A DNA stretch of 64,000 bases from Branchiostoma lanceolatum (lineage: Eukaryota; Chordata; Leptocardii; Amphioxiformes; Branchiostomatidae). Below the pieces are notes generated by a model. That model saw nothing but the letters and a program-made list of their open reading frames with translations. It searched no databases and had not been told where the DNA came from. Below are positions 30,479-63,304 of the stretch, piece by piece (position 1 is the stretch's first letter; each line of letters opens with the position of its first letter). The translations under genes and the position numbers were made by a program. The DNA lies in NCBI RefSeq assembly GCF_035083965.1, contig NC_089738.1:20238734-20302733 (forward strand), in the 5' to 3' direction.

Positions 30479-30511
<33 letters not shown>

Positions 30512-30515: not shown

Positions 30516-30520
30516 GAGAT

Positions 30521-32182: not shown

Positions 32183-34912
32183 ATGTCGGACGAAGAAGAA
32201 GAGAAACAAGAGAACACTTACGTCATTCGGCCGAACTTCCAGCACAAGTGAGTACCGCGTGTTTTATTTATGGGGGTGGAAATGATCGCGAACTGACCAA
32301 CAGTGTCACTGTTTATGTTTACGCGCCACAACTAATGTCACATTTATGACGTTTTTCCATAATGATTTGCGTCTGATTCGTGACTCCATTAAATTGTTAT
32401 GTCTACGTTTTACACTGGCATAGTCGCAGCCTTCATACGACTTTGCTTTCTTTCTCTTGAAGCGTAAAATTGACGGTTAAACACGACAGTCACTAATTTT
32501 CAGCCAATTATGATATGCTGATCAGATCGCCAGGCCGTAATTTATATGGTTTCTACACATCGGAGTATTCGGACCCAGACTTAAAACAAGGACAACAACT
32601 ACTAAACATTAGTTCATATTTTCGGGCGTTCACGCTGCTTTTCTATAGTAGAACCTCTTTCTGTCCTACACACCGCATTATGCTATGTCCGCCCAGGTTT
32701 CTCCAAACGTTACAAATGATTTGGTTTGTTTGTTTTGTTTGAACCTTTGTTTATTCATGATAAGCTCAAATCGGCACGCAGGCCGCTTTTCCACATCGGG
32801 CTGAAAAAGCCGGTTATTGGTTATTGATCTGCAGGTTCCAACCCACTGCGGTGAAAGAGTGCATCCACATTGTCCTGAACGAGCTAATTATTAGGGCTGG
32901 GTATGTGTGGTTGTTGGTTATTAGTTATTGATTATTAGTTATGGATTATTGACAGGTTCGGCCGGCGGCAGTGAAAGAGTGCATCCACATCGTCCTGAAT
33001 GAGCTGGTTATGGGTGGTTGTTGGTTATTAGTTATTGATTATTGGTTATTGATTATTGACAGGTTCCGCCCCGCGGCAGTGAAAGAGTGCATCCACATCG
33101 TGCTGAATGAGCTGGTTATGGGTGGTTGTTGGTTATTAGTTATTGATTACTAGTTATTGATTATTGATCTACAGGTTTTGCCCTGCGGCAGTGAAAGAGT
33201 GCATCCACATCGTCCTGAATGAGCTGGTTATGGGTGGTTGTTGGTTATTAGTTATTGATTATTGGTTATTGATTATTGACAGGTTCCGCCCCGCGGCAGT
33301 GAAAGAGTGCATCCACATCGTGCTGAACGAGGAGTTGACAGGGAAGGAGTACGACGGGGAACAGACGGCCGAGCTCTGCAAACATCTCTCCAACGAGATC
33401 AAGAAAAAACTCAAAGGTGACACGACTATTTTTTACCAAAACCTCAGCTTAGCAGCAGACCTGCCTTACATGGGGCCCGATGATGGGGGCCAGGGTAGCC
33501 TGTGTGACATGATCTCGCTGCCGGGGGCTGATTGGTCCTCTTCCTGAGCCGGTCAGTCGGGCGGGCCCCTAACAGAAACAGCACACTTAAGTCGTGCTAT
33601 AGGCCAGGGGGGTGTAGAGTCCTCGCACAGTGAGGTGTTGATTTGTGTGACTCGACAGTTGTTGTTTCCTCATGTTGCAAAGAAACAAAGTTGATGTATG
33701 AAAACGACAGTTTTTTTTTCATGTTGCAGACAGACTAACAAAGTTGATTTGTGTGACTTGACAGTTGTTGTTTCCTGTTTTTTCAGATCTGTCCTACGAC
33801 AGGTACAAGTTCGTGGTGCAGGTGGTGGTCGGGGAACAGAAGGGGGAAGGGGTCAAGTGAGTACAACAACCTTTTAATATTATTCTGTATTTAGGGGCTT
33901 GTGATATTGTGGCGTTGTGTTGGCATAACGGGTAGGGTGTTTGGCCTAGAACCCAGGGATCCTGGGTCTGAATCTCCTAACACTGATGTTGAGCCTTTGG
34001 GAAAGGCACTTTAAACAATGCTCCTCACTCCATCCAGGTGTAAAAATGGGTACCTGACTTCGGTTGGGGAGGTAAAAGGTGATGGAAGGAGAGGGTTGGG
34101 CTCCGCCTTCCAGTACCATGCCCGAGACACAGTAGATAACAACCCACTGCCCCTACGGCCTCACATATGGCTATGGGACTACCGTTACCTTTTTTTAAAG
34201 TGATTAATACTTACATACCATATGCAGTGCAGATTGGTGAAATCTAAAAGTGTCCTTGTACTGTGGAGACTGTAAGTTTGGAACCTGTCACCTCTCCCTA
34301 ACCCTGTTCTCTCCTTCCCTCCCTCCCTGTGCACAGAATGGCCTGCAGAAGTTTCTGGGACGCCGACACAGACAACTACGCTCAGGACATCTTCATGAAT
34401 GTAAGTTTGCTACAAAATGAATGTGAGTTTGCTACAAAATGAATGTGAGTTTGCTACAAAATGAATGTAAGTTTGCTACAAAATGAATGTAAGTTTGCTA
34501 CTAAATGAATGTAAGTTTGCTACTAAATGAATGTAAGTTTGCTACTAAATGAATGTAAGTTTGCTACTAAATGAATGTAAGTTTGCTACTAAATGAATGT
34601 AAGTTTGCTACTAAATGAATGTAAGTTTGCTACTAAATGAATGTAAGTTTGCTACTAAATGAATGTAAGTTTGCTACTAAATGAATGTAAGTTTGCTACA
34701 AACATTCTGCATGGGATAATTATTATCCCATACAGAATGTTTGGAGATAAAAAACGGGATTTATAATGACTCCAGTGGCCGAAACCTTTATTCAACATTT
34801 CTTGCGAAATCTGGTGTGTTTCAGAACTACCTAATAGCTAATGTTTGTTGTTTGTTTGTTTCAGGATTCGTTGTTTTGTGTAGCAGCAGCCTTCGGCGTT
34901 TTCTACTACTGA
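32183..34912 (+). CDS. DYNLT2B: Dynein light chain Tctex-type 2B (TCTEX1D2), complete
   Basis: Five coding exons: 32183-32247, 33283-33416, 33787-33856, 34337-34400, 34865-34912 (TGA). Phases agree and give 126 residues. The protein begins MSDEEEEKQENTYVIRPNFQ, continues RPAAVKECIHIVLNEELTG and YKFVVQVVVGEQKGEGV, and ends DTDNYAQDIFMN then DSLFCVAAAFGVFYY, closely following human DYNLT2B. The family is a light chain of cytoplasmic dynein-2, acting in retrograde intraflagellar transport in cilia. Exon 2's acceptor and exon 4's donor are each embedded in tandem repeats carrying extra copies of the splice site. A family-B SINE lies in intron 3. The start codon choice rests on homology of ENTY.xRP. 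Possible poly(A) signal ATTAAA near 35041. Confidence 0.95.
32835..33282 (+). repeat. Four decoy copies of the DYNLT2B exon 2 acceptor and exon start
   Basis: Copies start after CAG at 32835, 32956, 33063 and 33175; the true exon begins at 33283. Each copy has about 50 exonic bases (GCAGTGAAAGAGTGCATCCA) followed by GAGCTGGTTATGGGTGGTTG and a TTATTGATTATTGA-rich intron tail ending in (G)ACAG. Spacing is 107-121 bases. The copy at 33175 is open in frame to the true exon (108 bases). Confidence 0.93.
33913..34185 (+). mobile_element. tRNA-derived SINE (family B), plus strand, in DYNLT2B intron 3
   Basis: The head has TTGGCATAACGGGTAGGG (box A region) and CCTGGGTCTGAATCTCC (box B region). The body has TTTGGGAAAGGCACTTTA and then AAAATGGGTACCTGACTTCG. 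It is homologous to 6655-6795 (minus). Confidence 0.8.
34401..34700 (+). repeat. 22-bp repeat of the DYNLT2B exon 4 donor, about 14 copies
   Basis: The exon ends ...TTCATGAAT|GTAAGTTTGC, and the unit AATGAATGTAAGTTTGCTAC plus TA repeats immediately downstream at 22 bases. Two early units read GTGAGT. Each unit is a complete 5' splice site motif. Confidence 0.95.
34701..34741. repeat. 41-bp palindrome
   Basis: The 19-base arm AACATTCTGCATGGGATAA is matched with one mismatch, around a 3-base loop. It follows directly after the donor repeat. Confidence 0.85.
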
Positions 34913-36889: not shown

Positions 36890-39800
36890 CTATGACTTGA
36901 ACCTCTGAGCGATCTCCTCCAACTGCTGCATGAGACCTGCCTCCTCCGGCTTGGACGACTTGGTCCAGGCCAGCGGCAGGTGTTTGGGGGCGGGGGCTCT
37001 GTCTGGAAACAAACAAAACGTAAGTGTAGCTGCAGGAGCAAACAAGTGTATACTAAGAGCTGACTCTTGTAGCCGGTGCAATGGCTGAGTGGGTAGAGTG
37101 TTCGCCTTGCATACAGTAGGTCGTGAGTTCGATTCCCGGCCAGGTCATACCAAAGACTCCAAAAATGGTACATGCTGCTTTCTCTGCTTAGCACTCAGCA
37201 TTTGGGAAAGAGTATGGCAGTTAAACACACACCACTACCAGTGGACTAGCCCCCTGCTGTAGTGATTGCACAAAGTTCTGTGGCCCAAGGGCTACTGAAA
37301 CGGAGATGGGCGCCGCCCTATGCAACATCGGTGCGGGAAGGAACTTTGACTTGAAGAGCTAACTCTTGCACGTCTGGGAACAAACTCACACAGAACACCA
37401 CTGTCTGTCCTGTAGATCAGTTTTTGACAGTAAATTGTTTTTTTACTGTACCAAAAGCAAACCCTTAGAACAAACAGACCTGATGCAGGCTGTTTTCTAT
37501 CTCTTACACAGGTGAACAGTCTGTTTAAATACTGACTAGTTAAACAGCTGGTAACTACCAAAGCTATAGACTCACCAAGAACAAGTATTATATATATGTG
37601 AAGTCTTCAGCCCAAAAGCACCACAATTCAGTGCTGATACACCTGTACTGAATGTTGAATGATTGAGATGTGCCCACCTTGGAAGAAGAGTCCACCTGGT
37701 TGCTTAGCAACCGCCTCCGCCACACAGAGCCAGACCAGGGTGTCGGCTCCCTGCTCTATGGACCGCAGACGACTCTTCATCTTCTGGTGGAAATCTGGCA
37801 TGGAGTTCTGCACGGCTGCAGACGTAGGAGTAAGAACATATCTAGAATCATCTGACTTTATCTCAGACGCTTCTAAATGTACCAACAGACAGTTCTCACC
37901 GCTGGAGCATGTAACAATAGGATCATCAAACTGAATTCCAGGCAACAGAACTAACAGAAAGTGAATTATCTGCACTTTCGCTTTCATGTATGCACAGGAA
38001 TTACAGAGCTTGGTAACTTGAATGAGCGGAAACACTTAAATCCACGGGAAGGTGGGTCGTTCAAAACATGTGTTGCTGAATCAAGAAACTGATTGAAATG
38101 GCTGGTTTCCCTGCCAAGCTGGGGTTCAGAGGTCGTAGGTGGCCGGATTGTGGGATACTGTACCAATGGATTGTGGGATACTGTACTGATGGATTGTGGG
38201 ATACTGCACTGATGGATTGTGGGATACCTTACAGGTGCATTGTGGGATACTGACCTGGCGTGTCGGCCCAGCCGGGGTGGCAGGAGGAGAAGTGGATTGT
38301 GGGATACTGCTGGGCCCACTGCTCCGTCATGATGATCTGCTGACGCTGAAGAGTAACACATTTGTCAAGTCTACAAATCAATAATCAAGCCTTTACTACT
38401 GAATCTTCATGGATGTTTTAAAGCCTGGAGGATAATCACATAGACAAGCAACAGACATTTTGTTCCAGTCATTCTAGTCTTCCAACCCTCTGGCAAACAA
38501 ATAGTTTTACCTGACAGCATGTCAGAACAGCTTATCCTGGGAAACACCCTCTGTAGTAGCTCCTAAACAAGATAAAGGTAACTATGGAGGATGGTACCAC
38601 TCAGGCTAAGAACGGACCCCCCTCCTTCCGACTCACCTTGTTCTGTGAGTACGCCATGGTCCCATCAAACGGCCTCATCTGCTCAAACTGCAGGTCTTTA
38701 GTGTTTAACTTGGAAACCAGCATTCCTCCTGAGGACACTGTGATCTGGGGAGGAATAAGATTGTTAAAACATTGTTGTAAACAAAAAGATTTCTATAAAC
38801 TCCATCAAATAATAGATACTACTACTATTCATCGTGCAAACAGTTCCTTGCACACAGAGATGGACAGTTGCAATATTTAAGAGGTGCAAAGTATGCTACT
38901 TATAGCGGTGAGAAGCAGTACTCCAGTCAGAAGCTCTGAAGAAGGTGTCTGACAGACACCGAAACGTCAGCAGGTGAGATTCCGGGCTGTGCAAAATTAA
39001 AAGAAACTCCAAATATCTTATTCGAATGTTGTTTTCAAAGTTTGATTAAAAATTTTGCCACAATTGATTTCAAGCTACAGAAACTCAAAGGAAGGCCATG
39101 AGCTTGTTTACAATGTCTTGTAGGTTTGCGGCAGGAATATGTCCATATAACAGTTCAGCAGCTTTATTTCACTATTGCAGCTTTAAATTCAGGGTGGAGG
39201 AAAGTCTGTTCGATGTAAAGAAAAAAGGCGAAAGGACGCACCACTCGGGGATGCTCACTCTTGGACAGCAGGGGCAGCAGGCCGGTCGTCAGGATGTACG
39301 TACCTGCAACATGGAGGAACTGTCAATCAACTGTCATTCAACTGTCAATCACATGAAATGTCATTATGTGACTACAGGGGATGACAGATGGGTACTAGTC
39401 TCTACCACATTGACTACGCTGGCTAATTAGGGAGAATAATTTGGGTACAAAACAGGTGAATACAGCATTATGAAGTGAATCACTTATGCAGTTGTACACA
39501 TTGTTTGGATTCGAATTGTGCCTCTGGCAGAATCCTGCCGGATTGCAAAATGGGAGGTAAATGCTAGCTTCTCCATCTTGTGCATGATGAATGACTCTAT
39601 CCTTACCGAGTGTGTTTGTTGCAAAGTTTCCCTCCAGCCCATCTGCTGAAACCTCCCGCGTGTTGATCATGCAGCCTGCGTTGTTCACCTGCAAAGAGAA
39701 GATGGCATTTGAATTGAACTTGAAATTAAGACATGACATGGGACACCTGAATGGTGGTTTCTGTAGCCTATAGTGGGGGTACCTTATGATGATGATGATA

Positions 39801-42122
39801 GTGGGTGCAGTGAAATGTTCTTACCAGCACGTTGAGTTTGTCCTGCTGCTGACAGTGAGAGAACCCCCCCTAACTCCACCTCCCTCCGTCCCTCCCCCTA
39901 ACTAACTAACTAACTCACCAGCACGTTGAGTCTGTCCTGCCCCTGGCAGAACCCCCTAACTTACTAACTAACGAACTAACTATATAACTCACCAGCACGT
40001 TGAGCCTGTCCTGCTCCTGGCAGAACCCCCTAACTTACTAACTCACTAACTAACTCACCAGCACGTTGAGCCTGTCCTGCTCCTGGCAGAACCCCCTAAC
40101 TAACTAACTAACTCACTAACTAACTCACCAGCACGTTGAGCCTGTCCTGCTCCTGGCAGAACCCCCTAACTAACTAACTAACTCACTAACTAACTCACCA
40201 GCACGTTGAGTCTGTCCTGCTCCTGGCAGAACCCCCTAGCTAACTAACTAACTAACTAACTCACCAGCACGTTGAGCCTGTCCTGCTCCAGATATAACCC
40301 CATCTCCCTAGCTAACTAACTCACTAACTAACTCACCAGCACGTTGAGTCTGTCCTGCTCCTGGCAGAACCTGGAGGCGAAGTCTGCCACCTGTCTGGGC
40401 TGCGCCATGTCCAGGATGTGCAGGTGGACAAGCTGCTTAAGCAGTAGAAACAACGTAATCATTGGTACATTAGATCACAACTTCAGATGACTACACTTCA
40501 GGCAAACAAAAATACTATATGCTGAAAAAATGTAGAAATCAAATGTGGGAAGAGAACAAATCAGTAGTGATCCTGGCACAAAGTCTGGAGCCACAAAACT
40601 TCTCGTCTATGGTATAGTGCTTATTGACAGTGAATATCTATAATAGTATAAAGTCTGTTGTGCATACTCAATATCCCCTTGCCTATCCCTTTTTTCCCCA
40701 ATGTCATGTGGTTAAACATGATCAGTTAAAGGTTATGCAATAGGTGTACATTGGCACATCTGCTAGCATCTGTGATCACCTGGCTGCACACATGAGCTCA
40801 TCTTTCTGCATACCTGGTATAACACCTGTGCTCACCTGTGCACAGCTGCTCAGACCCATGCTCAAGTGTTGACACCTGTTATAACACCTGTTCTCTCCTG
40901 ACCCCACCTGACTCACCTGGCTGCCTGTTGTCTCCCGGATGTCCTTCAGCGCCTCCTCACCTCTGGACGGGTTTCTGCACACCAGGTGGACCGTACCACC
41001 TGTGGGGGGAGGCAGGTTTAGATCATTCTGCTGACACATGAATATACTCTTTTATCTGGCAGTGTGTGATGGCTGATTAACACGTTACCTCGGACCTCTC
41101 CTGGGGATCCGGATGAGATTGAGGTTTCCGTGATGTGATACTTAATTGGAGGTTCACAGGAGAGTCACACCTCGAGCATGATTATAAGAGCAGCCCTATC
41201 AATGGCTGCACCTGGGACAACTATCTTACGGGGGTCACTATGTAGAGTGCTGAAAAGCTGCCATTGCGACTTAGCCCCACTCCTTGCGATTGCAATTCGG
41301 ACCCTGCCTGCAAAGACAGGGTAGTCAGTCAGCATACCCAACAGTACTATCTTAGAAATACAAACAAACATGCGAGTAATTATCATGTGACCTCTGACCT
41401 CTCTTGGCGACCTCCTCAGCGGTTGCCTTGCCGATACCGCTGTTGGCCCCGGTGATGAGGAAGGTGCGACCTGTCACGTCGACCTGCAGGTCACAGGGGT
41501 CAAAGGTCTTGGCTGCGGCTGCATATCCTGAGCTGAGATTCAGATGATATATGTCAGATATACAGATGTATCAAAACACTACTGAACAGATCAGTCTATT
41601 CTTCATGAACTCAGCTTTTGGTTTGGCTGAGGAAAAAAAGGAAGCATTGACGACATATATGATCATATATGGGGTACAGTGCATTTGTTAAATGGGAAAT
41701 CATAATTTGACTTGATTTGCATCTCACATACACTGACTGACTGAATTTGCATGAGCCACATGCATAAAAAAATGTAGCGTAGCCAAATTCAAAATAACAC
41801 CAGGGGTACTGAGCCAAGGTGTTCGGCTACCTCGAAGGAACAAGAAACAGAAATTTTATTCTACATGTAACAGGAAAGGACTGTAAAACATATTTTTCCT
41901 TTAGCTAAATTACTTCAGCTTAATGTTCTGTTAAAACCTCCTTGGTTATAAGCAGCTAGTCTGGACAAGGAGGACAACTGAAGTTGAGGTCCTCATCGAC
42001 TACGATGGACGAACATCATTTAACCTCCTTGGTCTAGATGATGATAACGAAAGGCTTATAACGTACTTGGTGTATTCTCGCATCCCCTTGACGAACCACA
42101 CTGCGTTCCGCCACAGGGACAT
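36890..42122 (-). CDS. DHRS12: Short-chain dehydrogenase/reductase family member 12, complete
   Basis: Ten coding exons in gene order: 42122-42067, 41532-41399, 40999-40917, 40432-40337, 39688-39607, 39303-39242, 38744-38637, 38345-38255, 37815-37678, 37002-36890 (TAG). They sum to 963 bases, 320 residues, with consistent phases. The start MSLWRNAVWFVKGMREYTK matches the family N-terminus. The nucleotide-binding TGANSGIG is near residue 47-54, NNAG follows, and the catalytic YSQNK is in exon 7; HPGWADTP is also conserved. It is an NAD(P)-dependent oxidoreductase of the Rossmann fold whose substrate is poorly known. Exon 6 uses donor GTGCGT. Exon 4 and exon 8 donors are repeated in tandem downstream. 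A SINE sits in the last intron. It is divergent from AP1S. Confidence 0.95.
37070..37345 (+). mobile_element. tRNA-derived SINE (family C) in the last DHRS12 intron, antisense to the gene
   Basis: The head has AATGGCTGAGTGGGTAGAG (box A) and GTCGTGAGTTCGATTCCCGG (box B). The body runs to about ATGCAACATCGGTGCGGG. It differs in body from families A and B. Confidence 0.8.
38140..38254 (-). repeat. 23-bp repeat after the DHRS12 exon 8 donor, about 5 copies
   Basis: On the gene strand the intron begins GTCAGTATCCCACAAT and repeats CAGTATCCCACAATCCATCA. The same CAGTATCCCACAATCCAC is coding sequence (QYPTIH) inside exon 8, so exon, donor and repeat share one unit. Confidence 0.88.
38930..38980 (+). 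other. Hammerhead-like motif of a retroelement fragment
   Basis: CTGAAGA, a 7-bp stem (GGTGTCT/AGACACC) and GAAAC follow one another, the order of a hammerhead core (CUGANGA - stem II - GAAA). A related but degenerate CTGAGGAAGGTTACC/AAAACG lies at 43829-43855. Such cores are known in Penelope-like and some other retroelements. The remaining stems are weak here, so activity is doubtful. Confidence 0.35.
39820..40330 (-). repeat. Seven decoy copies of the DHRS12 exon 4 end and donor
   Basis: On the gene strand, AGGACAGGCTCAACGTGCTG|GTGAGT recurs about every 68-72 bases downstream of the true donor at 40336. Copies end near 40264, 40196, 40128, 40060, 39992, 39922 and 39829; the last has GTAAGA. 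Spacers are (GTTA)n plus GGGGGTTCTGCC. Confidence 0.93.
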
Positions 42123-42794: not shown

Positions 42795-44501
42795 ATGGTG
42801 AGTTGTCGAATTTTCTTACTAATTTCTCAACAATATGGGCTTAATCAACCTCATAGCCGTACAAAAATACACTGAATGATTGTCGTACGTCTTATTTATG
42901 TGAAATCGGGACGTCCGCTGCCCGTTTTGTGGCTGCTATGACCAGTTGTGCGTGTGACTTAGGTCGTGTTGTGGGAGGGGGGCGGTCGGTGGGTGGGTCA
43001 GTGGTACTGATGTTGTTTGTTTGTTTGTTGCAGATGAAGTTCATGTTGTTGTTTAGCCGACAAGGCAAGGTTCGGCTACAGCAGTGGTACTGATGTTGTT
43101 TGTTTGTTTGTCTGTTTGTTGCAGATGAAGTTTATGTTGTTGTTTAGCCGACAAGGCAAGGTCCGCCTGCAGCAGTGGTACTCGGCGACGCAGGAGAAGG
43201 AGAAGAAGAAGATAATGCGGGAGCTGATCACCATCATCCTGGCCAGGAAGCCCAAGATGTGCAGCTTCCTGGAGTGGAAGGAGTACAAGATCGTCTACAA
43301 AAGGTCAGAAACTTACATTACTTAGTTACCCTACTTACTGCGTCAGACATACTCAGCTGTTAGCCAGCCAGAGGGAAGGAGTACAAGATCGTCTACAAAA
43401 GGTCAGGAACTCTCCTTATGTCACAGCCGGGCTGCGATAACCTTCAATACGGGTGTTCGGATAGGTCCGTACTCGACGGTACAGCCTGGGCTTCCCTAGA
43501 TTCGATTTGAGTGCGCCGGTTGCACAACTTTGTCGCATAGTTCACTTCAACATGGTGAACTTTCTTTCTCCATAGGTTCTGGTTTGGTTTTGTGCGGTTG
43601 CTGCCATTTCCTGGTCGGAAACCTATCTCAGTATCTGCCCTTTTTCTCGTCTTTTTGAGGGAGTCGTATCTTAAGTGCTAGCCACACTGTAAAAACATAT
43701 GTAATGAGGCTGGATGGAGAAACTCTGACCTAGTCATGAATCTTGATAAAGTTTGGGACTGCATTCTTTCCACTGCAACAGTGACACCTAGCTGCAGTGT
43801 AAAGTAGAACCAGTCAGTATTGCCCTGAGGAAGGTTACCAAAACGTTGGCTTGATACATTGTATTAACTCTCTGGTCGTGTACAAAAAACTTGTACATGT
43901 TATTTTGTAGTAATTTGAATCTAAAAATAATCTTTACTGTGTTGCAGATATGCGAGTCTGTATTTCTGCTGTGCGATTGAGAAGGGCGACAACGAGCTGC
44001 TGACGTTAGAAATCATCCACAGATACGTGGAGCTGCTCGACAAGTACTTCGGCAGTGTGAGTACGGGAGACGAGTTTTACTTGTAACCAGAAAAGTTGCT
44101 TCCTACTGCTGAATTCCTGTTACATTCAAGTTTGCCTTTACATTAGTTCATTTTAGATGTGTAGCTTTCACAAGTCTACTTTCTGAATGTTTCAAATTTG
44201 TTAAGGCATTCCTATAGTTTCGTGTGTGTGACGATTGTTGTTTGTTGTTGTACCTACAGGTGTGTGAACTCGACATCATCTTCAACTTTGAGAAGGCGTA
44301 CTTCATCCTGGACGAGCTGCTGGTGGGAGGGGAGATCCAGGAAACCAGCAAGAAAAACTGTCTCAAGGCCATCGCAGCGCAGGACTTGTTACAGGAGGTG
44401 AGTAACAGACATAACCCCCCCCCCCCCCCCACCTAACCACCGCTCCCCCCCCCCCCCTCCCCTTTACCATCGCAGCGCAGGACTTGTTACAGGAGGTGAG
44501 T

Positions 44502-44537
<36 letters not shown>

Positions 44538-44602
44538 CCCTTACCCCCTCAACCCTTACCCCCTGTACCATCGCAGCGCAGGACTTGTTACAGGAGGTGA
44601 GT

Positions 44603-44636
<34 letters not shown>

Positions 44637-44717
44637 CCCTTACCCCCTCAACCCTTACCCCCTGTACCATCGCAGCGCAGGACTTGTTACAGGAGGTGAG
44701 TACACACACACACACGC

Positions 44718-44771
<54 letters not shown>

Positions 44772-45284
44772 CCCTTACCCCCTGTACCATCGCAGCGCAG
44801 GACTTGTTACAGGAGGTGAATAACAGACATTCCCCCCACCCCTAACCCTCCCGTCCTCTCCTCTTTACCATCACAGCATAGGACTTGTTGTTGTTGGGTT
44901 AGTAACCCCCTTCTCCGACATGGGTGTACCCCCTTCCCAGGCACCCCCCCCTCTCCCTGTACGCCCCCCTTCCCTGTACCAACCCAGCTCAGGACACCAT
45001 GATCTGTTGTTGAGAGCCTGTATTTCAATCATGTAAAATGTGTCTGTGATCTCTATGCGTGAATGAGGTTAGGCATCCATGTAATTAGGTACGTCTGATT
45101 TACAAAGTCTATCCAGTTGCTTCAGTAACTTCTCTGATGATTCTGGCTTTTGACCTTCTTTGTGTCCTTTCTCACACACATCAAGACAGAGTCTGAGACA
45201 CAAGGACGATTCTGAGACATTTTTGTTGTCTTACAGGAGGCGGACGCCACCAGAAACGTCTTGGAGGAGATGGGTCTACCCTGA
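42795..45284 (+). CDS. AP1S: AP-1 clathrin adaptor complex sigma subunit, complete
   Basis: Coding exons 42795-42797 (ATG only, then GTGAGT), 43125-43303, 43948-44056, 44260-44397, 45237-45284 (TGA) give 158 residues. The start [17 protein letters not shown] has the double Met seen in other invertebrate AP1S proteins. The rest ([58 protein letters not shown]-like [10 protein letters not shown]) is nearly vertebrate-identical; the whole protein is one longin-like fold. It sorts cargo at the trans-Golgi network and endosomes and helps bind dileucine signals. Both ends of exon 2 and the donor of exon 4 are duplicated in the flanking introns. Vertebrates have three paralogues; this is probably the single ancestral-type gene. 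Confidence 0.96.
43020..43124 (+). repeat. Decoy copy of AP1S exon 2 acceptor and first 57 bases
   Basis: A copy of ...TTTGTTTGTTGCAG|ATGAAGTTCATG begins at 43035 and matches the true exon at 43125 up to CAGTGGTACT, then hits TGA and repeats the intron tail. The unit is 90 bases. A matching decoy of the exon 2 donor (AAGATCGTCTACAAAAGGTCAG) lies at 43379-43405. Confidence 0.9.
44398..44905 (+). repeat. Four intact and one decayed copy of the AP1S exon 4 donor, with (CA)n tracts
   Basis: CAGCGCAGGACTTGTTACAG|GAG-GTGAGT recurs at about 44496, 44599, 44698 and 44817 (the last is GTGAAT), then degenerates at about 44866. Units are separated by C-rich and long CA tracts. Confidence 0.93.
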
Positions 45285-45962: not shown

Positions 45963-46043
45963 TAGCCTGGATGCCAGACCTCCAATCTATAAAATATCTA
46001 CCCAATAGCTATTTTATAGATTGGGGGTCTGGCATCCAGGCTA
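45963..46043. mobile_element. 81-bp palindromic TAGCCTG-ended MITE
   Basis: Near-perfect 34-base arms beginning TAGCCTGGATGCCAGACC are joined by a short loop; TA is present at both tips. It shares its tip with 2828, 21900 and 54340 elements. Confidence 0.75.
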
Positions 46044-46395: not shown

Positions 46396-46639
46396 ACTAC
46401 CTGTACCACAAGCTAGTCCATAGTCATGATAGTGGTGCTAGAAAACTTGTACAAATATTGTACAAAACTGACACTTCATGTACAATACAAAGATATAGAA
46501 ATCTATGTACAGAATATACAAATGTTGGCATAGAACAGATGATACAATGGGATTTTGATGTGGCACCAGCGAGCAATTGGCAGAAGAAAGAGAACATTTA
46601 AACCAGTTGTTCAGTTTCTGCATTTCTAGGCCCTGTTGC

Positions 46640-46797: not shown

Positions 46798-49700
46798 CTA
46801 GAGGAACTGTTGCCCCCCGCTTGAGAACCTGTCGTTGAGTTGTCGCGAGTTCTTGATCAGCTGTCGTCTCTTGGCAGCGTCCAGCTGACCTGCCCCGAGG
46901 TCAAGGTCGCGGTCAAAAGGTCGCCTCTCTTTAGGCTCGTCTTCCTCTTCCTTCTGGTATAAACAAAGTCAACATGAATAACATAAACATTGTCAACAGA
47001 AACACAACATCGTGCGCATGTCATGAATATTAATGTCTTGAACAGAGACATAATTTTTTTTTAAACAAATGTAACATAGATATGGTCAACAAACACTTCC
47101 CAGGAGTTATTTTACCTCCCTTAATAGTTACAATTCAGTAATGCAGACTGAAGGTTTTCAGACCAGGATTAGGGTTGCATAGTAAGCTATCTGCACAACT
47201 GTCACATCGCCATGACAACTACTCACAGCCTTGCGTTTCCGAGCCTTCTGGTGTTGGTCTAACAGCGAGGAGCCCCGCTTTTTCTCCTGAAACAATAAAC
47301 AATGGTCTCTGGTGAAATCAAGGAAATCTGTACCCTCAAAATTAGATCAATATCATATATATCAGGTACAAAGTACAGGTAAGCCAACACCTTTACAAAC
47401 TGAACTAAAATTTCAATATTACTTGTTTCATCGTTGAAGAGGTTCATCAGTCACGCATAATATCAGATACACGAATATTCTTCGAACAGTGACTTAATAA
47501 AAGGAAGCGAAATACTAACCTCCAAATTTTCGACGTCTAGTCTGTACAAGATGTACAGACTAGACGTTGAAAATTTGGAGGTCAGTATTTCGCTACCTTT
47601 TATTAAGTCACTGTTCGAGGAATATTCGTGTATCTACTTGTTTCATTGATTTCATTGATGTGACTGTTAAGGTCTGTTTTTTCACCCAGGGCACATTGAA
47701 AACTACCAGTAGGTGATATGTTGGTTACCCCGGTGAAATAAATAAAAAACAAACAAATAATCTTACGTTGTAGGTGGAGACCTGCTCCCGTAACCTGATA
47801 TCTCGCTCCGCTGCCGCCAGGTCCGCTGGCTTCATCGGCTTCTGCTGGGTGTCGTCTTTCCCTTTCTGTAAAAACAAATGTAGAGTTGGGCTCCATCCTG
47901 GTGTGAGTGGATAAAAAAAACGGACAAAAAAACGGACAAAGTTGAGAGAATCGAAGAAGGACTGATTGCAGCTGCAGGGTGTTCAGAGCGCAGCAGCAGA
48001 ACACAGTGGACTACTTCTACTGTCAGTCATGTTGAACTAACATTGATTGATTGACAGATTGACTGACCGCAGCCTTCCTGGCCTTGTCGGCGGGCGTGTC
48101 CGTCCACACCGACCGGTCGCCCATATCAGGTTTCGCGTTGCGCCGGAACGTCCGCGGGCCCATCCCGAAACTCGTCATCGCCGAGGGCAACTCCAGCATC
48201 CACTCCTCTCGCTCCGTAACCTCGGCAACCTGGTTCTGTAAATAAACAACAACACGTCAGAACACTCATGTTTTGTAACTACGGTAACCTGGTTCTGTAA
48301 ATAAACAACAACAACACATCACTCGAGCATCCACACGACACCCTGTTTCACATCCAGCTCCAGTTGGGGGAAACTGCAGGAGTCTGAAGTCCCCTTCTAG
48401 AGGAATGGTCAGGTCCAAACCGACCATCTGACCTAAGAGCTGGACACACAAAATGGCTCAGCTGACCTTGCCCTCCAGTTTGTCCTTCATGGCCTGGGCT
48501 CTCTTATCAAACTCCTGCGCCACGGACATCCCAGCATCCTCCTCTCCTGACGGGGGCAGCATCGGGCCGATCAGCTCATCATCATCATCATCGCTGTACC
48601 CAGCAGGCAGTGCAGCACCAACCTGCAGGTCACTGACCTCTGACCTGCTGAACCCAGGGGGGAGGGCTGGACCAATCACAGACTGTGATGGGCCTGACCC
48701 TGGGGACGAGCTCTTCTTGAAACCTGGGAACAAGAAGGGAAACTTTGTGCTATATATATATTCTATCTCAAGTATTTCTAAGAAAACTACAGAATGTTAC
48801 ATATTTTTTTTCTCGACACTCCAGGATGTCTCTGCAGCTCAACTGGTAGCAGCCTCACAGCTGAGCTTCTCGTTCCAATATGTTGGTAACTGGGAGACCC
48901 TGGTTCAAATCCTGGGAAGGGCATCCTGGTTGGAGCTGCGTTCGTCTTTCAGAAGGGAGGTAAAACAGTCCCTAGATCGAGAAGGTTCCTCGAGCACTTT
49001 AAAAGGGACTACAACAGCCCCATTACTCAGATGGGTACCTACTGGCTCTACTGCAGATATACATTCTTACTCTTGAAAGTGTTGATAAGACAACCACATG
49101 GATGTTACAGAAATTCTGCTGTTTTGCTTTTTAAGCTATTATGTACAAAAGTCGACGGAATTCAGCACTGTCTAACGTTACATTGTGTACCATGTCAGAT
49201 GTGCTGCTATGTTGATTTTCAATTTAAAAAAAGTTTGAAGACCTGGTGGGAGGGCGGGGCCGCAGAACTCCTGTCTGTCTCCTGACCTCTGACCTGCCCT
49301 GTTGTCATCATCATCCTCATCATCCTCATCATCCTCATCGCCTGCGTGACCTGCTAAGCCTGGAGGGAGGGCTGGGCCAATCACAGCGCTCGACTGATGG
49401 GACTCAGGAGATCTCTGGAAACCTACATAGGGAGCAAACAGGTTTGCTATTGGTTGCTGACTAGATCGGAAGAAATAAATGTTTCCTGGTACAGTAGTAC
49501 AGTTCTGTATCAAATCATCGCAGGCAGAGCCTCTTTTCTTATCCTCAAACAACAGTAGAAGGTAGAAACATATGTATGTTTGTAGGGCTGTGGTGCAACA
49601 AACTGTTGGATATCATAACTAGCCACTGAGGTGCCCACTCAAAGCTTGTGTGTTACCGCAAATCATGGCTTACACTGACTGAACTACAATGCACTTGCAC

Positions 49701-50465: not shown

Positions 50466-52851
50466 ATGCCTCCGAAGAAGGGCGGGAAAGATGGCGGGAA
50501 GGGCGGGGGGAAAGGTGGAGGAGGAAAGGGCGGGAAAGACGGCGGAGGAAAGGGCGGGAAGGGGAAAGGAGGCGGGGCGGCCGCGGAAGGTGAGTGAGTG
50601 AAGGAAAGAAAACCGGACGCTGCAGCTTTACCAACGACTTGTCGCGAATTTCAGCTGACCAGTTTTTGGAAACGTTACATGAATATGACTTGCCGATTTA
50701 TTCTGTACCATGTTTTCTGCGCAGCCGCCGGTGGAGACAGTAAACAGGCGAAGGGAGGAACATCCGTGAAGGTAAAGATGCCTGCCTACAGCTGCCTGGG
50801 GTGGGGTGCACCCTGGGGTGGGGTGGGGTGGGGTAGGGGGTGTGCGCCCTGGGGTGGGGTGGGGTAGGGGGTGTGCGCCCTGGGGTGGGGTGGGGTGGGG
50901 TGGGTTAGGGGGTGTGCGCCCTGGGGTGGGGTGGGTTAGGTGGTGTGCGCCCTGGGGTGGGGTGGGTTAGGGGGTGTGCGCCCTGGGGTGGGGTGGGTTA
51001 GGGGGTGTGCGCCCTGGGGTGGGGTGGGTTAGGGGGTGTGCGCCCTGGGGTGGGGTGGGTTTGGGGGTGTGCGCCCTGGGGTGGGGTGGGTTTGGTGGTG
51101 TGCGCCCTGGGGTGGGGTGGGTTTGGTGGTGTGCGCCCTGGGTTGGGGTGGGTTAGGGGGTGTGCGCCCTGGGGTGGGGTGGGTTAGGGGGTGTGCGCCC
51201 TGGGGTGGGGTGTGCGCCCTGGGGTGGGGTGGGTTTGGTGGTGTGCGCCCTGGGGTGGGGTGGGTTAGGGGGTGTGCGCCCTGGGGTGGGGTGGGTTTGG
51301 TGGTGTGCGCCCTTGGGTAGGGTGGGTTAGGGGGTGTGCACCCTGGGGTGGGGTGGGTTAGGGGGTGTGCACCCTGGGGTGGGGTGGGTTGGGTGGTGTG
51401 CGCCCTGGGGTGGGGTGGGTTAGGGGGTGTGCACCCTGGGGTGGGGTGGGTTAGGGGGTGTGCACCCTGGGGTGGGGTGGGTTAGGGGGTGTGCACCCTG
51501 GGGTGGGGTGGGTTAGGGGGTGTGCGCCCTGGGGTGGGGTGGGTTAGGGGGTGTGCACCCTGGGGTGGGGTGGGTTAGGGGGTGTGCACCCTGGGGTGGG
51601 GTGGGTTAGGGGGTGTGCGCCCTGGGGTGGGGTGGGTTAGGGGGTGTGGGCCCTGGGGTGGGGTGGGTTAGGGGGTGTGCGCCGTGGGGTGGGGTGGGTT
51701 AGGGGGTGTGCACCCTGGGGTGGGGTGGGTTAGTGGGTGTGCGCCCTGGGGTGGGGTGGGTTTGGGGGTGTGCGCCCTGGGGTGGGGTGGGTTAGTGGGT
51801 GTGCGCCCTGGGGTGGGGCAAACATATTTGTAACGTATTGCAAAAGCCCCTAATGAACAAGTCCAGTTTGATTGCGTATTTTTAAATTGTATTTTGCAGA
51901 ACATATTATTATTATAATTCAGTTTATCCTTTTCATGTCTGAAATGTTATTTCTCGCTTTTAACGTTGTTACAATATGTAGATTCAATCCTATATAATGT
52001 CCTTGGTAGATTGTAGGGGGTGGAGGTTGTACTTACTTTATCTCCCGTTCTCCCGCAGGTGCGGCACATCCTGTGTGAGAAACAGTCGCGGGCGCTGGAG
52101 GCCATCGAGAAGCTGCAGGCCGGCATGAAGTTTAACGAGGTCGCCACTCAGTACAGCGAGGACAAGGCCAAACAGGGGGTAGGTACAGGGGGTATTTACA
52201 GGGGGAGGGGGGTAGGTATATGTGTCTGTAAGGGGGGAGCTCAGTACAGCGATGATAAGGTTTGGTTGTCACTTCTATTTTGACCCTCCTGTGTTTGGTT
52301 CAGGATGCCCTTTGACCCTCCTGTGTGTATTGTACAGGGTGCCCTTTGACCCTCCTGTGTGTTTGGTTGAGGGTGCCCTTTGACCCTCTTGTGTGTATTG
52401 TGCAGGGTGCCCTTTGACCCTCCTGTGTGTATTGTACAGGGTGCCCTTTGACCCTCCTGTGTGTTTGGTTGAGGGTGCCCTTTGACCCTCTTGTGTGTAT
52501 TGTATAGGATGCCCTTGTCTTTATGACCTCTTCATTTTGATCTGTTCCATTATGTAATACCTGTTATGTTTCATGACTCAGCATTTCTGTGATATCTGTA
52601 TGCTAACATAGACACAGGCTTTCTTATCACTTTGACCTTATCTGTGGTGCAGAGTGACCTTGTATTTGACCTTCCCGTGTGCCGTGCAGGGTGACCTCGG
52701 TTGGATGGTCCGGGGGTCGATGGTGGGGCCGTTCCAGGACGCGGCGTTCGCACTCCAGCCCAGCACGACGCAGAAACCCGTCTACACCAACCCACCAATC
52801 AAGACAAAGCACGGCTACCATATCATCATGATCGAGGGGAAGAAAATGTGA
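50466..52851 (+). CDS. PIN4: Parvulin-type peptidyl-prolyl isomerase PIN4 (Par14), complete
   Basis: Four exons 50466-50589, 50725-50771, 52059-52178, 52690-52851 (TGA) encode 150 residues. A Gly/Lys-rich basic N-terminal tail ([18 protein letters not shown]...) precedes the parvulin domain: [67 protein letters not shown]. The family catalyses cis-trans isomerisation at proline and acts in ribosome biogenesis, chromatin and mitochondria; the basic tail is typical for nucleic-acid binding. Intron 2 is filled by a 31-bp G-rich array, and intron 3 by 34-bp units resembling the exon 4 acceptor. Poly(A) signal candidate AATAAA at about 53703. Confidence 0.96.
50795..51825 (+). repeat. 31-bp G-rich satellite in PIN4 intron 2, about 33 copies
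   Basis: The unit is GTGCGCCCTGGGGTGGGGTG plus GGTTAGGGG. Each unit offers several G3-4 runs on the coding strand, so stable G-quadruplexes and R-loops are expected. GGTTAGGGG in most units resembles the telomere repeat. It starts about 25 bases after the exon 2 donor. Confidence 0.96.
52270..52515 (+). repeat. 34-bp repeat resembling the PIN4 exon 4 acceptor, about 7 copies
   Basis: The unit is CCCTCCTGTGTGTATTGTACAG plus GGTGCCCTTTGA, split here for length. The true acceptor reads CCTTCCCGTGTGCCGTGCAG|GGTGACC, with TTTGA before it. Every third unit has TTTGGTTGAG, giving a 102-bp higher-order pattern. Confidence 0.85.
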
Positions 52852-57449: not shown

Positions 57450-60400
57450 TCACGTCAGCTTCTCCTTGGCGGGAACCCACGCCGTCTGCTGCGAGTTGTC
57501 CTGGATCACGCCCTTGACCTTGTCGTAGATCTCGTCGATGGTGTCGCCCTGCACGATCGCCGTGAAGTACTCGGCGAACTCCTGCTCGAGCTTCTGCGCA
57601 CGCTCGTACGTTTTCCTCGCCTGCTCCTCTGTGATTCGCTTGTTCATTTCCCTAAGGGGCAAAGGACACAGGTCAAGGGTCAAGGCTGATCATGTTGGAA
57701 TATGATTGACAACTTGGCATGCTGGGATACATACAGGAACAGTGTGATTGACACCTTGGCATGCTGGGGTATAGGAAGGAGTAGTATGATCAACAGATTG
57801 GCATGCTGGGATACATACAAGAGCAGTGTGATTGACATTGTGGCAGAGCAGTGCATGCTGGGATACCTACAGGAGCAGTGCATGCTGGGTACTCACATAA
57901 TGGACTCGATAGACTTGGGTTTGATGAAGATGGCGACGGGGAACAGCTGGGCCACCTGCAGACGCTTGATGGCGTTTCCGGAGACGTCCAGGATACAGTG
58001 CTTGCCCTGAAACACAGCACGCCACGTTAACCACGGTTCTGTTGCCATGGAAACACAGCACGTCATGTTAATCACGGTTCTGTTGCCATGGAAACACAGT
58101 TTGTCTCGTTCACCACGGTTCTGGCCATGGAAACACAACATGTTACCATGGCCCCTACATATCAGGTTTCCAATGACCAGCACAAAGCCATCTCTGCCCT
58201 TCAAGTCACCTTCAGAACTGTGAGGGACAAATGGCTACGATGTACTGGAGTATGTATGCTGGAGCATCATGGGATGCCCTCACAAAACAACTCTGCATCA
58301 TGGGATTTCCCAAGCAAAGATGGATGCATTCTGGAATTGATGCATCTTTTTAATTTCCTACAACAGTTTGTCTATGTCCAGACGAAGGAGGAAAACTTCT
58401 TTAATTGAAGCTACGCTGGTTCCGTACAGGTTATCATTGTACTGACCTTATCTGCTACTTCTTTAACTGAAGCTACGCTGGTTCCGTACAGGTTATCATT
58501 GTACTGCCCCGCCTCGATGAACAGGTGGTTCTGGATGTCCCGTTCCATCTGCTCGCGGGACGCCACGAAGTGGTAATCCCTGGCATCCACCTCGTATTCC
58601 CGCTTCGACCGCGTCGTGTCTGTAACCGGGGCAACAGTAACTTAGCAACAAGAAGGAGAGCAACACGACATGACTGACAATACACACTGATTATCAGGCA
58701 AGAACTCATGAATAACAAAAGGAGCCTACAACTCTCCTGGCACATTATAATTAGCCGGGCGGTTAGAGCGTTGGGCTCAAAACCAATAGGTCCCAGGTTC
58801 CGTATTTGCCATGAACAGTCTACTCACGTGGTACACAGCTCCCGAACTTGTCAGGAAACTCTGAGATGAGGTCATCATTTACGCGGTCCTGCGGGCGGGA
58901 AAACAGTTGTTACAGAACTGTCTGACTGGAAATGTGAAGAACAGGTTTTACATCACATTAAATCTTCTTTAGAGAACCTGACATGCATGTAACCATTGAA
59001 CAACAAAGAATATGTGGCTACAATCATCTCATGTTTTCCATTCATTCATACCCCCTCTGTTGATGAAGGTTAGCCAAAGTTTGGGCCTTCTAGTCACTAT
59101 GACAACCCAACGGACAAACGCAACAAATGTAAAGCTAAGGTTCTAATTTTACGGAGACGCCTTTTGCATTCATGATTTTTGTTTTGCAGCACAAATTTTA
59201 CTTCTGTCTGTCTTACCTTCAATGGCCCCAGTATGATCACTGGTCTTGTGTATTTCACTGGAAGGAAAAAAGAATTTCTGTTGTTACATTTTCTGTTCCA
59301 AACCTGAGTGTTTCCTCTGGTGTGATGTTCATACATGTTCAGCAAAACTTGGATAATATTTCGTAGAATTTACTCTGTCACTACTTCAGCTGATTACCAT
59401 GTTCTATTTCTTGTTGCTTAATTACTTTTCTAACAATTGCAGGCATGTAACAACACACTGAGGCGTACAGTAATGATTTATCAATACTATTGTCTAAATC
59501 GCAAAAAAAAAGACTGCATCTGACAACACAACTGTGTAACTGTGTTTGGTCCTGCAGCGATAGTGTTTGTTTGTTTGTTTGTTTGTTTGTGCTACTTACA
59601 CTCTTGTTGTACAACAGCCTCGTATGACAGAACTGGTCCTGCAGCGATAGTGTTTGTTTGTTTGTTTGTTTGTTAGTGCTACTTACACTCTTGTTGTACA
59701 ACAGCTTCGTATGACAGAACTGGTTCTGCAGCGATAGTGTTTGTTTGTTTGTTTGTTTGTTTGTTAGTGCTACTTACACTCTTGTTGTACAACAGCCTCG
59801 TATGACAGAACTGGTCCTGCAGCGATAGTGTTTGTTTGTTTGTTTGTTTGTTTGTTAGTGCTACTTACACTCTTGTTGTACAACAGCTTCGTATGACAGA
59901 ACTGGTTCTGCAGCGATAGTGTTTGTTTGTTTGTGTGTTTGTTTGTTAGTGCTACTTACACTCTTGTTGTACAACAGCTTCGTATGACAGAACTGGTTCT
60001 GCAGGGATAGTGTTTGTTTGTTTGTGTGTTTGTTTGTGCTACTTACACTCTTGTTGTACAACAGCCTCGTATGACAGAACTGGTCCTGCAGCGATAGTGT
60101 TTGTTTGTTTGTTTGTTTGTTAGTGCTACTTACACTCTTGTTGTACAACAGCTTCGTATGACAGAACTGGTTCTGCAGCGATAGTGTTTGTTTGTTTGTG
60201 TGTTTGTTTGTTAGTGCTACTTACACTCTTGTTGTACAACAGCTTCGTATGACAGAACTGGTTCTGCAGCGATAGTGTTTGTTTGTTTGTGTGTTTGTTT
60301 GTTAGTGCTACTTACACTCTTGTTGTACAACAGCTTCGTATGACAGAACTGGTTCTGCAGCGATAGTGTTTGTTTGTTTGTGTGTTTGTTTGTTAGTGCT

Positions 60401-63304
60401 ACTTACACTCTTGTTGTACAACAGCTTCGTATGACAGAACTGGTTCTGCAGCGATAGTGTTTGTTTGTTTGTGTGTTTGTTTGTTAGTGCTACTTACACT
60501 CTTGTTGTACAACAGCTTCGTATGACAGAACTGGTTCTGCAGCGATAGTGTTTGTTTGTTTGTTTGTTTGTTTGTTGGTGCTACTTACACTCTTGTTGTA
60601 CAACAGCCTCGTATGACAGAACTGGTCCTGCAGCGATAGTGTTTGTTTGTTTGTTTGTTTGTTTGTTGGTGCTACTTACACTCTTGTTGTACAACAGCTT
60701 CGTATGACAGAACTGGTCCTGCAGCGATAGTGTTTGTTTGTTTGTGTGTTTGTTTGTTAGTGCTACTTACACTCTTGTTGTACAACAGCTTCGTATGACA
60801 GAACTGGTTCTGCAGCGATAGTGTTTGTTTGTTTGTGTGTTTGTTTGTTTGTTAGTGCTACTTACACTCTTGTTGTACAACAGCCTCGTATGACAGAACT
60901 GGTCCTGCAGCGATAGTGTTTGTTTGTTTGTTTGTTTGTTTGTTGGTGCTACTTACACTCTTGTTGTACAACAGCCTCGTATGACAGAACTGGTCCTGCA
61001 GCGATAGTGTTTGTTTGTTTGTTTGTTTGTTTGTTAGTGCTACTTACACTCTTGCTGTACAACAGCCTAGTATGACAGAACTGGTTCTGCAGCGATAGTG
61101 TTTGTTTGTTTGTTTGTTTGTTTGTTTGTTTGTGCTACTTACACTCTTGTTGTACAACAGCCTCGTATGACAGAACTGGTCCTGCAGCGATAGTGTTTGT
61201 TTGTTTGTTAGTGCTACTTACACTCTTGTTGTACAACAGCCTCGTATGACAGAACTGGTCCTGCAGCGATAGTGTTTGTTTGTTTGTTTGTTTGTTTGTT
61301 GGTGCTACTTACACTCTTGTTGTACAACAGCCTCGTATGACAGAACTGGTCCTGCAGCGATAGTGTTTGTTTGTTTGTTTGTTTGTTTGTTAGTGCTACT
61401 TACACTCTTGCTGTACAACAGCCTAGTATGACAGAACTGGTTCTGCAGCGATAGTGTTTGTTTGTTTGTTTGTTTGTTTGTTTGTTAGTGCTACTTACAC
61501 TCTTGCTGTACAACAGCCTAGTATGACAGAACTGGTTCTGCAGCGATAGTGTTTGTTTGTTTGTTTGTTTGTTTGTTTGTTTGTGCTACTTACACTCTTG
61601 TTGTACAACAGCCTCGTATGACAGAACTGGTTCTGCAGCGATAGTGTGTTTGTTTGTTTGTTTGTTTGTTTGTTAGTGCTACTTACACTCTTGTTGTACA
61701 ACAGCCTTGTATGACAGAACTGGTCCTGCAGCGATAGTGTGTTTGTTTGTTTGTTTGTTTGTTAGTGCTACTTACACTCTTGTTGTACAACAGCCTCGTA
61801 TGACAGAACTGGTTCTGCAGCGATAGTGTTTGTTTGTTTGTTTGTTTGTTTGTTAGTGCTACTTACACTCTTGTTGTACAACAGCCTCGTATGACAGAAC
61901 TGGTTCTGCAGCGATAGTGTTTGTTTGTTTGTTTGTTTGTTTGTTAGTGCTACTTACACTCTTGTTGTACAACAGCTTCGTATGACAGAACTGGTTCTGC
62001 AGCGATAGTGTTTGTTTGTTTGTTTGTTTGTTTGTTAGTGCTACTTACACTCTTGTTGTACAACAGCCTCGTATGACAGAACTGGTCCTGCAGCGATAGT
62101 GTTTGTTTGTTTGTTTGTTTGTTTGTTAGTGCTACTTACACTCTTGTTGTACAACAGCCTCGTATGACAGAACTGGTTCTGCAGCGATAGTGTTTGTTTG
62201 TTTGTTTGTTTGTTTGTTAGTGCTACTTACACTCTTGTTGTACAACAGCCTCGTATGACAGAACTGGCTCTGCAGCGATAGTGTTTGTTTGTTTGTTTGT
62301 TTGTTTGTTTGTTTGTTAGTGCTACTTACACTCTTGTTGTACAACAGCCTCGTATGACAGAACTGGTTCGTCGACCCCCCCTGTGGAGAGACAACAGGAC
62401 GAGTCAGCACGGTTCAAAGGTGGGAGTTCAAGGTTCAGAGTTCAGGGTTAACAGGGCACCACGAGGCTGGGAGTTCCACACACAGGGCAACAGTCTCCCT
62501 TACCCGCCGACCAGGCATAGTCACTATGGCAACAGTAACTATGGTGATGGTCACAACAAATGGGAAGCCAAAGTTTGAACCATGCATAGTCTCTATGGCA
62601 ACAGTAACTATGGTGATGGTAGCAACAAATGGAAAGCCAAGGTGCTAATTCTACTGACACACCTTTATGCATTCATGATTTTTGATTTGCATCTCAAATT
62701 ATAATTTACAGAAAACTGAAGTATTCAACATGTCTCTATTTGTAGCAAAAACACTGATGGTGAAAACATGATGGAAAGCCCAAAGACTTGCCCACAATCG
62801 GCATGCAGATGAACAATGGTGGCAGTATGTGTTGTACATGATCTGATGTCAAACGTACATAGTAGAACTCTTTATGGATGTTTCAACTCAACTTTTGGAC
62901 AATTTCGCCTCAATTTTTCACAATTTTTGAACCATGACCTTCACAGAGGTGAACCCAAACAAACAGCTTTGAACATTTTGAAGTGAAAACTGCCATCTAG
63001 AATGGTCACTTTTAGACTTTAAATTGGCTCGAAAGTTCAAGACAAAGACTGAGTTTAACAGTGGAAAAATTTGGGTGTCATTTTTTGCGTTGGAAATCAT
63101 CGCAGTTCAACCTTCTTCAATAGATATTTTTAAATCATTAATGTTGAGATTTTTCTCTCAGAAGTTGGTGACATCAAACCATCCCAGCACGACAAAACAC
63201 ATGCAGAGGACGATTGGGGGAAGAAAGGCAGAAGAGAAGAGCTGCAGGATGGATGCAGAAGAATAGAGGGAAGGTTTTACCCTCCGACTCGCCAGTAATT
63301 TCAC
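57450..63304 (-). CDS. DLG: Discs large MAGUK scaffold, C-terminal exons (5' end outside window)
   Basis: Exons in gene order: 63304-63281 (24-nt microexon, tentative), 62380-62330, 59257-59217, 58888-58828, 58619-58447, 58006-57897, 57651-57450 (TGA). Phases agree throughout. The peptide runs [108 protein letters not shown] and ends [10 protein letters not shown]. This is the hook plus the catalytically inactive guanylate-kinase domain of the DLG1-4 family. PDZ and SH3 exons must lie beyond 64000. The protein organises cell junctions and synapses at the membrane. At least four of its junctions are tied to tandem repeats. Confidence 0.95.
57690..57896 (-). repeat. About 42-bp repeat downstream of a DLG donor, 4-5 copies
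   Basis: On the gene strand the intron starts GTGAGTACCCAGCATGC; repeats carry GTA(T/G)GTATCCCAGCATGC, each again a donor-like GTATGT or GTAGGT followed by the same CCCAGCATGC. Confidence 0.85.
58010..58150 (-). repeat. About 46-bp repeat upstream of a DLG acceptor, 3 copies
   Basis: On the gene strand units read CCATGGCAACAGAACCGTG..TGCTGTGTTTC; the true acceptor is GTGCTGTGTTTCAG|GGC at 58006. Confidence 0.85.
58400..58446 (-). repeat. Duplicate of DLG exon sequence forming the start of the intron
   Basis: The intron opens GTCAGTACAATGATAACC and continues TGTACGGAACCAGCGTAGCT, a copy of coding sequence [13 protein letters not shown] just inside the exon. The unit is about 62 bases, and the donor lies within the copy. 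Confidence 0.92.
58750..58812 (+). mobile_element. tRNA-like SINE head fragment
   Basis: GCGGTTAGAGCGTTGGGCTC followed by AGGTCCCAGGTTCCG has box A/box B spacing of a tRNA. No further SINE body is recognised. Confidence 0.5.
59550..62329 (-). repeat. About 30 decoy copies of a DLG exon end and donor, about 91-bp units
   Basis: On the gene strand each unit carries CTGCAG, AACCAGTTCTGTCATACG, AGGCTGTTGTACAACAAGAG, then T|GTAAGTAGCAC and a (CAAA)n tract, before CTATCG(C/-)TGCAG of the next unit. The true exon is the first copy on the gene strand (62380-62330); its 5' part (GGGGGGTCGACG) is unique to it. Unit length varies mainly through the CAAA tract. Variants (AGCTTCG, AGCCTAG) cluster in neighbouring units. 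Confidence 0.96.
62400..63280. other. DLG intron
   Basis: It contains a duplicated block (GCATAGTC(A/T)CTATGGCAAC, GTAACTATGGTGATGGT) at about 62514-62560 and 62584-62625. Otherwise nothing is recognised. Confidence 0.6.

Follow-up and report, generated by a model that had tools for sequence, protein, structure and literature searches.

Why should the exon-intron boundaries of neighboring genes lie in or against tandem repeats? A preliminary description of one 64 kb stretch of amphioxus DNA (the window, i.e., the whole stretch that was analyzed and on which all our results rest) had claimed a high density of such boundary arrays across six adjacent genes and had noted that the class may be known from amphioxus. 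The density was confirmed for these six genes, and the literature does describe the class: "mirages," minisatellite-like duplications of intron-exon boundaries in amphioxus Adh3 and in the globins BflGb6 and BflGb9 (PMC3087553). The window holds a real and dense example of this known amphioxus phenomenon. We rebuilt six genes within the 64 kb, DLG being represented by its 3′ part only:

DYNLT2B, forward strand, 5 exons
DHRS12, reverse strand, 10 exons
AP1S, forward strand, 5 exons
GPALPP1, reverse strand, 7 exons
PIN4, forward strand, 4 exons
DLG, reverse strand, last 6 exons (more exons may lie between 62381 and 64000)

These models comprise 31 complete introns, each with GT-AG ends, and one further acceptor, i.e., 63 junctions; the frames are open. 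Gapless alignment with solved homologues covered residues 7-126 of DYNLT2B, 1-157 of AP1S, 51-149 of PIN4 (the first PIN4 intron, after residue 41, lies outside the aligned part) and 3-210 of DLG. Spliced DHRS12 was 99% identical to B. lanceolatum DHRS12, with the same length and 3 of 320 residues different, and spliced DYNLT2B was 98% identical to B. lanceolatum TCTEX1D2. Judged by these matches, the window comes from B. lanceolatum or from something extremely close to it. The support for GPALPP1 is DUF3752 only (residues 211-340); its exon 4 starts at residue 188, with an acceptor backed by frame and splice score alone.

An unbiased search for local direct repeats was merged to 22 loci in the right half of the window after low-complexity repeats had been filtered out, while three dinucleotide shuffles of the right half contained no local direct repeats. 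Seventeen of these loci lie in gene bodies, and the five outside start-to-stop gene bodies were left out of the null. Setting aside the wholly exonic array in PIN4 exon 1 (50508-50560) left 16 arrays for testing; the repeat at the PIN4 exon 3 donor, which was found by TRF only and had been absent from the preliminary list, is not among them. The features on which the argument rests are the following:

32832..33327, forward: DYNLT2B exon 2 acceptor array, ~108 bp unit; five acceptor copies at 32835, 32956, 33063, 33175 and 33283, the last being the protein-coding copy
33637..33776, forward: DYNLT2B intron 2, sequence preceding the exon 3 acceptor present twice, junction 10 bp off
34395..34702, forward: DYNLT2B exon 4 donor array, 22 bp unit including 6 exonic bases, 14 copies (TRF, alignment of copies)
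38145..38252, reverse: DHRS12 intron 8 array, 23 bp unit, exon 8 donor 2 bp off
39823..40371, reverse: DHRS12, eight donor copies at exon 4; the repeated 70 bp include ~35 bases of exon
42999..43182, forward: AP1S, exon 2 acceptor present twice through a 91 bp duplication
43276..43411, forward: AP1S exon 2 donor duplication, 2 copies at a spacing of 98 bp
44369..44819, forward: AP1S, five copies of the exon 4 donor in a 99 bp repeat that has CA tracts
46618..46818, reverse: GPALPP1, array of TTCCTCTAG in four copies over the stop codon
48216..48313, reverse: GPALPP1, duplication of 59 bp that gives two copies of the exon 4 acceptor
50800..51818, forward: PIN4 intron 2 G-rich array, 31 bp unit, exon 2 donor 28 bp off and not spanned
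52172..52205, forward: PIN4, 2.6 copies of a 13 bp unit holding the exon 3 donor (TRF)
52290..52516, forward: PIN4 intron 3, array of a 34 bp unit with seven acceptor-like copies similar to the exon 4 acceptor (52690)
57701..57880, reverse: DLG intron array, 42 bp unit, donor 57896 16 bp off, junction not spanned
58009..58123, reverse: DLG array, 41 bp unit, acceptor 58006 2 bp off, decoys without AG
58395..58506, reverse: DLG duplication, 62 bp, 1.8 copies
59547..62369, reverse: DLG donor array (donor 62329), 91 bp unit with ~40 exonic bases, 31 copies
62510..62640, reverse: DLG upstream intron duplication, 69 bp, nearest junction 129 bp away, a purely intronic comparator

Most copy numbers of the preliminary description were reproduced: 5 and 14 at the DYNLT2B exon 2 acceptor and exon 4 donor, 8 at the DHRS12 exon 4 donor, 2, 2 and 5 at the AP1S exon 2 acceptor, exon 2 donor and exon 4 donor (the fifth copy of the last carrying the weaker donor GTGAAT), 2 at the GPALPP1 exon 4 acceptor and 4 over its stop codon region, where the outer copies are 3′ UTR, and 31 at the DLG donor 62329. 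In this DLG array the donor AGT/GTAAGT is identical in 31/31 copies, and GTRAGT donors occur in 14/14 copies of the DYNLT2B exon 4 array. The accompanying claim that the repeat unit holds the splice motif at 13 listed junctions stood at nine and failed at four. At the DHRS12 exon 8 donor and the DLG donor 57896, the complete motif is not repeated and the arrays, which stop 2 bp short and 16 bp off, respectively, hold weak donor-like words only; at the DLG acceptor 58006 it is likewise not repeated, the decoys reading CCATGG against CAG at the real acceptor. The 1.8-copy duplication at DLG 58446 does include the junction, but the complete donor is present once. At the PIN4 exon 4 acceptor the seven motif copies are present, but the junction itself lies outside the array, with the decoy acceptors 182-386 bp upstream of exon 4; the likeness of this array to the real acceptor scored 29, compared to a maximum of 24 in 500 shuffles and 26 in one flanking control.

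A repeat over the exon-intron boundary, which defines a mirage, was found in 9 of the 16 non-exonic gene-body arrays and not in the other 7. The nine take in 6 to 60 exonic bases each, with units of 22-108 bp (from 13 bp if the PIN4 exon 3 donor is included). Counted by junction, 15 of the 63 have one of these 16 arrays no more than 30 bp away, and 9 of these 15 lie inside one.

To evaluate this placement against chance, we collapsed each array to one unit and placed it at random anywhere not wholly within an exon. Under this null, 3.83 of 16 arrays (24%) are expected to span a junction, compared to the nine observed (p = 0.004; odds ratio 4.6, 95% interval 1.4-15.5), and 6.2 are expected within 30 bp of a junction, where we found 14 (p = 6e-5). 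All p values are nominal, since the window had been picked for this very pattern. Rotating the collapsed units within genes gave 8/16 spanning against 3.87 expected (p = 0.018; one array no longer spans in this test), and leaving out DLG 58446, whose matched copies do not cross the junction, gave 8/16 under the placement null (p = 0.018). The excess was found for arrays with at least 2.5 copies (5/10 vs. 2.05 expected, p = 0.03) and with fewer (4/6 vs. 1.78, p = 0.07), and for units up to 70 bp (4/10 vs. 1.73, p = 0.07) and longer (5/6 vs. 2.1, p = 0.02). Non-spanning arrays lay close to junctions as well, with 5/7 at 30 bp or less (1.3 expected, p = 0.004). Overall, there is a moderate, unexplained excess of arrays at the junctions of these six adjacent genes.

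A comparison that the preliminary description had itself set for its claim, of repeat overlap at junctions against intronic and exonic positions, went against it when run within the window. Using junction-centered 24-mers and scoring a copy as a match of 20/24 or better within 400 bp, we found a local copy at 8/63 junctions, compared to 32% of 18,779 intronic positions (a share on which the 2.8 kb DLG and 1.0 kb PIN4 arrays weigh heavily) and 7% of 3,956 exonic positions; the share was 5% in right-half intergenic DNA and 34% in the left half. Moving from exon to intron, local copies were present at 1, 6, 8 and 11 of 63 at offsets of -60, -12, 0 and +60, where short exons are overshot at -60. 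For the 63 junctions, this per-base test thus showed no enrichment or peak, with values between those of exon and intron. Its eight junctions include the DHRS12 exon 2 donor, a short-word match and not an array, and miss the AP1S exon 4 donor and DLG 58446, as the 24-mer criterion differs from the array list.

What the extra copies can do for the gene is constrained by the reading frame. Use of an inner copy would lead to an early stop in 67 of 69 decoys; the two that stay open are DYNLT2B 33175 (+36 residues) and PIN4 52212 (+11 residues). The exon-proximal copy must therefore normally be used. Annotated proteins match this choice for B. lanceolatum DHRS12 and TCTEX1D2/DYNLT2B (annotations, not transcripts), as does the AP-1 sigma annotated in B. 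floridae x B. japonicum, which differs only in being extended at its N-terminus and in a few residues. On splice scores from a matrix built on these same 31 introns, decoy acceptors outscored the real site in 2/4 cases at DYNLT2B exon 2, 4/7 at PIN4 exon 4 and 1/1 at AP1S exon 2. Because decoys often score above the real site, we infer that motif strength is not what decides, and that closeness to the exon must.

We consider it rather probable (about two chances in three) that the mirages are widespread tandem duplications that survive at exon edges as their extra copies become intron. Mirages are, in short, minisatellites born by tandem duplication across the boundary of constrained and free sequence. 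Slippage or unequal exchange would generate duplications all over this genome, which is rich in repeats; within coding exons they would mostly be purged by selection, whereas those across an exon edge would survive, because splicing takes the exon-proximal site and the remaining copies become intron. The GPALPP1 stop codon array would follow the same logic, with extra copies turned into 3′ UTR; as no splicing is involved there, it speaks for repeats being tolerated where constraint ends rather than for a mechanism directed at splice sites. Repeats are also plentiful where the only gene recognized is intronless, namely at 18 loci in the left half. Some observations go against this reading: neutral placement predicts 3.8 spanning arrays among 16, where nine were observed, and the close approach of non-spanning arrays to junctions is not predicted by absorption alone. 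We think that the junction excess stems partly from the preserved exonic copy, which keeps arrays recognizable, and partly from the choice of window. The excess is also present in arrays with at least 2.5 copies, so old two-copy duplications that have been preserved cannot account for all of it.

The left half bears on the suggestion, made in the preliminary description, that repeats might be tolerated only at junctions. Its 18 repeat loci total 11.9 kb and lie in DNA where we recognized one gene only, an intronless one, which speaks against that suggestion. This gene is an 876-aa reading frame with leucine-rich repeats at 24136-26766; two of the 18 loci fall inside it, and inspection by eye suggests a probable membrane segment. 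Pfam scans in six frames covered 1-15001 and 15601-30601; these scans, which could miss small exons without a Pfam domain and outside which 15002-15600 and 30602-32100 lie, gave only leucine-rich-repeat families besides chance hits. Those judged to be chance were Extensin_1, under its cut-off, and T7-like_Y65, which scored 23.9 against a cut-off of 25 in one frame and 74.8 against 25 in another, its best stretches in both frames falling in a 57-bp array. This 57 bp unit occurs in 87 copies at 96% match (10699-15688), with a second array at 8367-8741, and a sequence similar by eye is found in a GPALPP1 intron (48990-49050); the unit probably derives from a dispersed repeat. Other repeats were noted in the right half. 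In the PIN4 array at 50800-51818, a G-rich unit of 31 bp (TGGGGTGGGGTGGGTTAGGGGG...) is repeated ~32 times and may be able to form G-quadruplexes. Long near-perfect inverted repeats seen by eye at 47480-47640, 45965-46045 and 54340-54530 resemble small hairpin-type transposable elements, and a tRNA-like box (GTTCGATTCCCGGCC) in a DHRS12 intron (37070-37345), also seen by eye, marks a possible tRNA-derived SINE.

A different account of the junction excess would make splice junctions hot spots of minisatellite birth, where the motif, or a transcription or replication process acting on it, seeds the duplication, for example where a donor and a donor-like exon word share short homology. We regard this as unlikely. 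The excess of spanning and near-junction arrays is what it predicts, but local copies show no peak at the junction. Two joins also speak for it. Intron 8 of DHRS12 opens with a copy of exon 8 sequence (a 14-mer repeated at 57 bp), so that the exon 8 donor consists of GT plus CAGT from the exon copy; in the DLG duplication (58395..58506), the unit ends with the donor GT (58446), after which the following copy opens with CAGT. In both, a copied exon segment starting with CAGT abuts a donor GT to give GTCAGT, which could reflect short-homology duplication between a GTCAGT donor and an exon CAGT word, or chance. Two cases are few, however, and 6/31 donors start with GTCAG anyway. Moreover, the 14 copies of the DYNLT2B exon 4 array fit 308 bp exactly (34395-34702), without leftover bases that would mark end homology. 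The wider proposition, that amphioxus junctions are minisatellite birth sites with about one in four to five junctions affected and introns growing outward from their splice sites, we hold to be doubtful.

It is very unlikely, in our judgment, that placement is purely neutral and the apparent excess a product of window choice. The 24% expected to span (3.83/16) is already sizable because the units are long and the introns short, the per-base test was negative, the p values are nominal for a chosen window, and within 100 bp of junctions the excess is weak (14 vs. 10.25 expected, p = 0.04). Against this stand the nominal p values of 0.004 and 0.018 under two nulls and the earlier independent reports of mirages in other amphioxus genes (PMC3087553, PMC3902484).

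Splice-site redundancy had been raised in the preliminary description as a possible consequence, and we find it highly improbable that selection maintains the copies as spare or alternative sites. Decoy donors do remain intact in DLG (31/31) and DYNLT2B (14/14, the real copy included in both), yet the early stops predicted for 67/69 decoys argue against such a function, and the 9-base donor is not specially conserved within the DLG array, where 20/57 nine-column windows are invariant. DHRS12-like isoform X2 records (from B. floridae and from B. floridae x a second Branchiostoma) lack exactly the 32 residues of exon 4. Compared with the window (40337-40432), the exon missing from these records (P0002, P0003) is the one whose donor has 8 copies here, which may count in favor of redundancy; the gap possibly reflects exon skipping linked to the mirage, or else a prediction error. 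Exon skipping differs from decoy use, however, and the array state is known here for the window's DHRS12 only.

That the arrays are assembly artefacts is hardly credible: long near-identical arrays are hard to assemble, one mirage was apparently misassembled in the B. floridae draft (PMC3087553) and PGBD5 repeat number differs between two B. floridae sequences (PMC3902484), but for PGBD5 a second look at the Sanger data, together with new Illumina data, backs the repeats (PMC3902484), and in the window the flanks and exons are continuous and the copies mutually different, even if copy numbers could still be off.

Tandem duplication absorbed at exon edges also fits what has been published. Beyond Adh3 and the globins, mirages have been described in TnC and PGBD5 (PMC3902484). 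They are said to leave regular splicing undisturbed (PMC3087553, PMC3902484), with Adh3 data and globin RT-PCR suggesting normal splicing despite them; length instability has been reported, and a model for intron gain was offered (PMC3087553). The arrays in the window resemble them in having tandem units over the boundary, in affecting both donors and acceptors, in keeping AG/GT in many but not all copies and in that the normal protein, as annotated, would come from the exon-proximal copy. Their units (13-108 bp) overlap the published range of 10-160 bp, and the host is a cephalochordate, as the 99% and 98% identities to B. lanceolatum proteins indicate. Unlike published mirages, the arrays reach up to 31 copies, several can occur per gene (two in DYNLT2B, three spanning arrays in AP1S), six adjacent genes each have at least one junction array, and their placement is measured against nulls. 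A similar case is intron gain in which exon segments bearing AGGT are duplicated in tandem, since there, too, splice-site sequence is duplicated and the extra removed by splicing (PMC3443670); here, in contrast, existing junctions are multiplied, with no sign of intron creation. No title among the matches listed from the open-licence literature pointed to a genome-wide mirage survey. Ordinary intronic minisatellites have comparable unit length, copy number and variation between copies, but the arrays described here include exonic bases and the splice site.

These data suggest that boundary-spanning repeats are common in amphioxus, beyond a few odd genes. Mirage arrays could mislead gene prediction, as described for PGBD5 (PMC3902484). 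For the splicing machinery of these animals, they offer a clear test case of how the spliceosome chooses the exon-proximal site among many near-identical copies, also in acceptor arrays in which upstream copies score at least as high as the real site.
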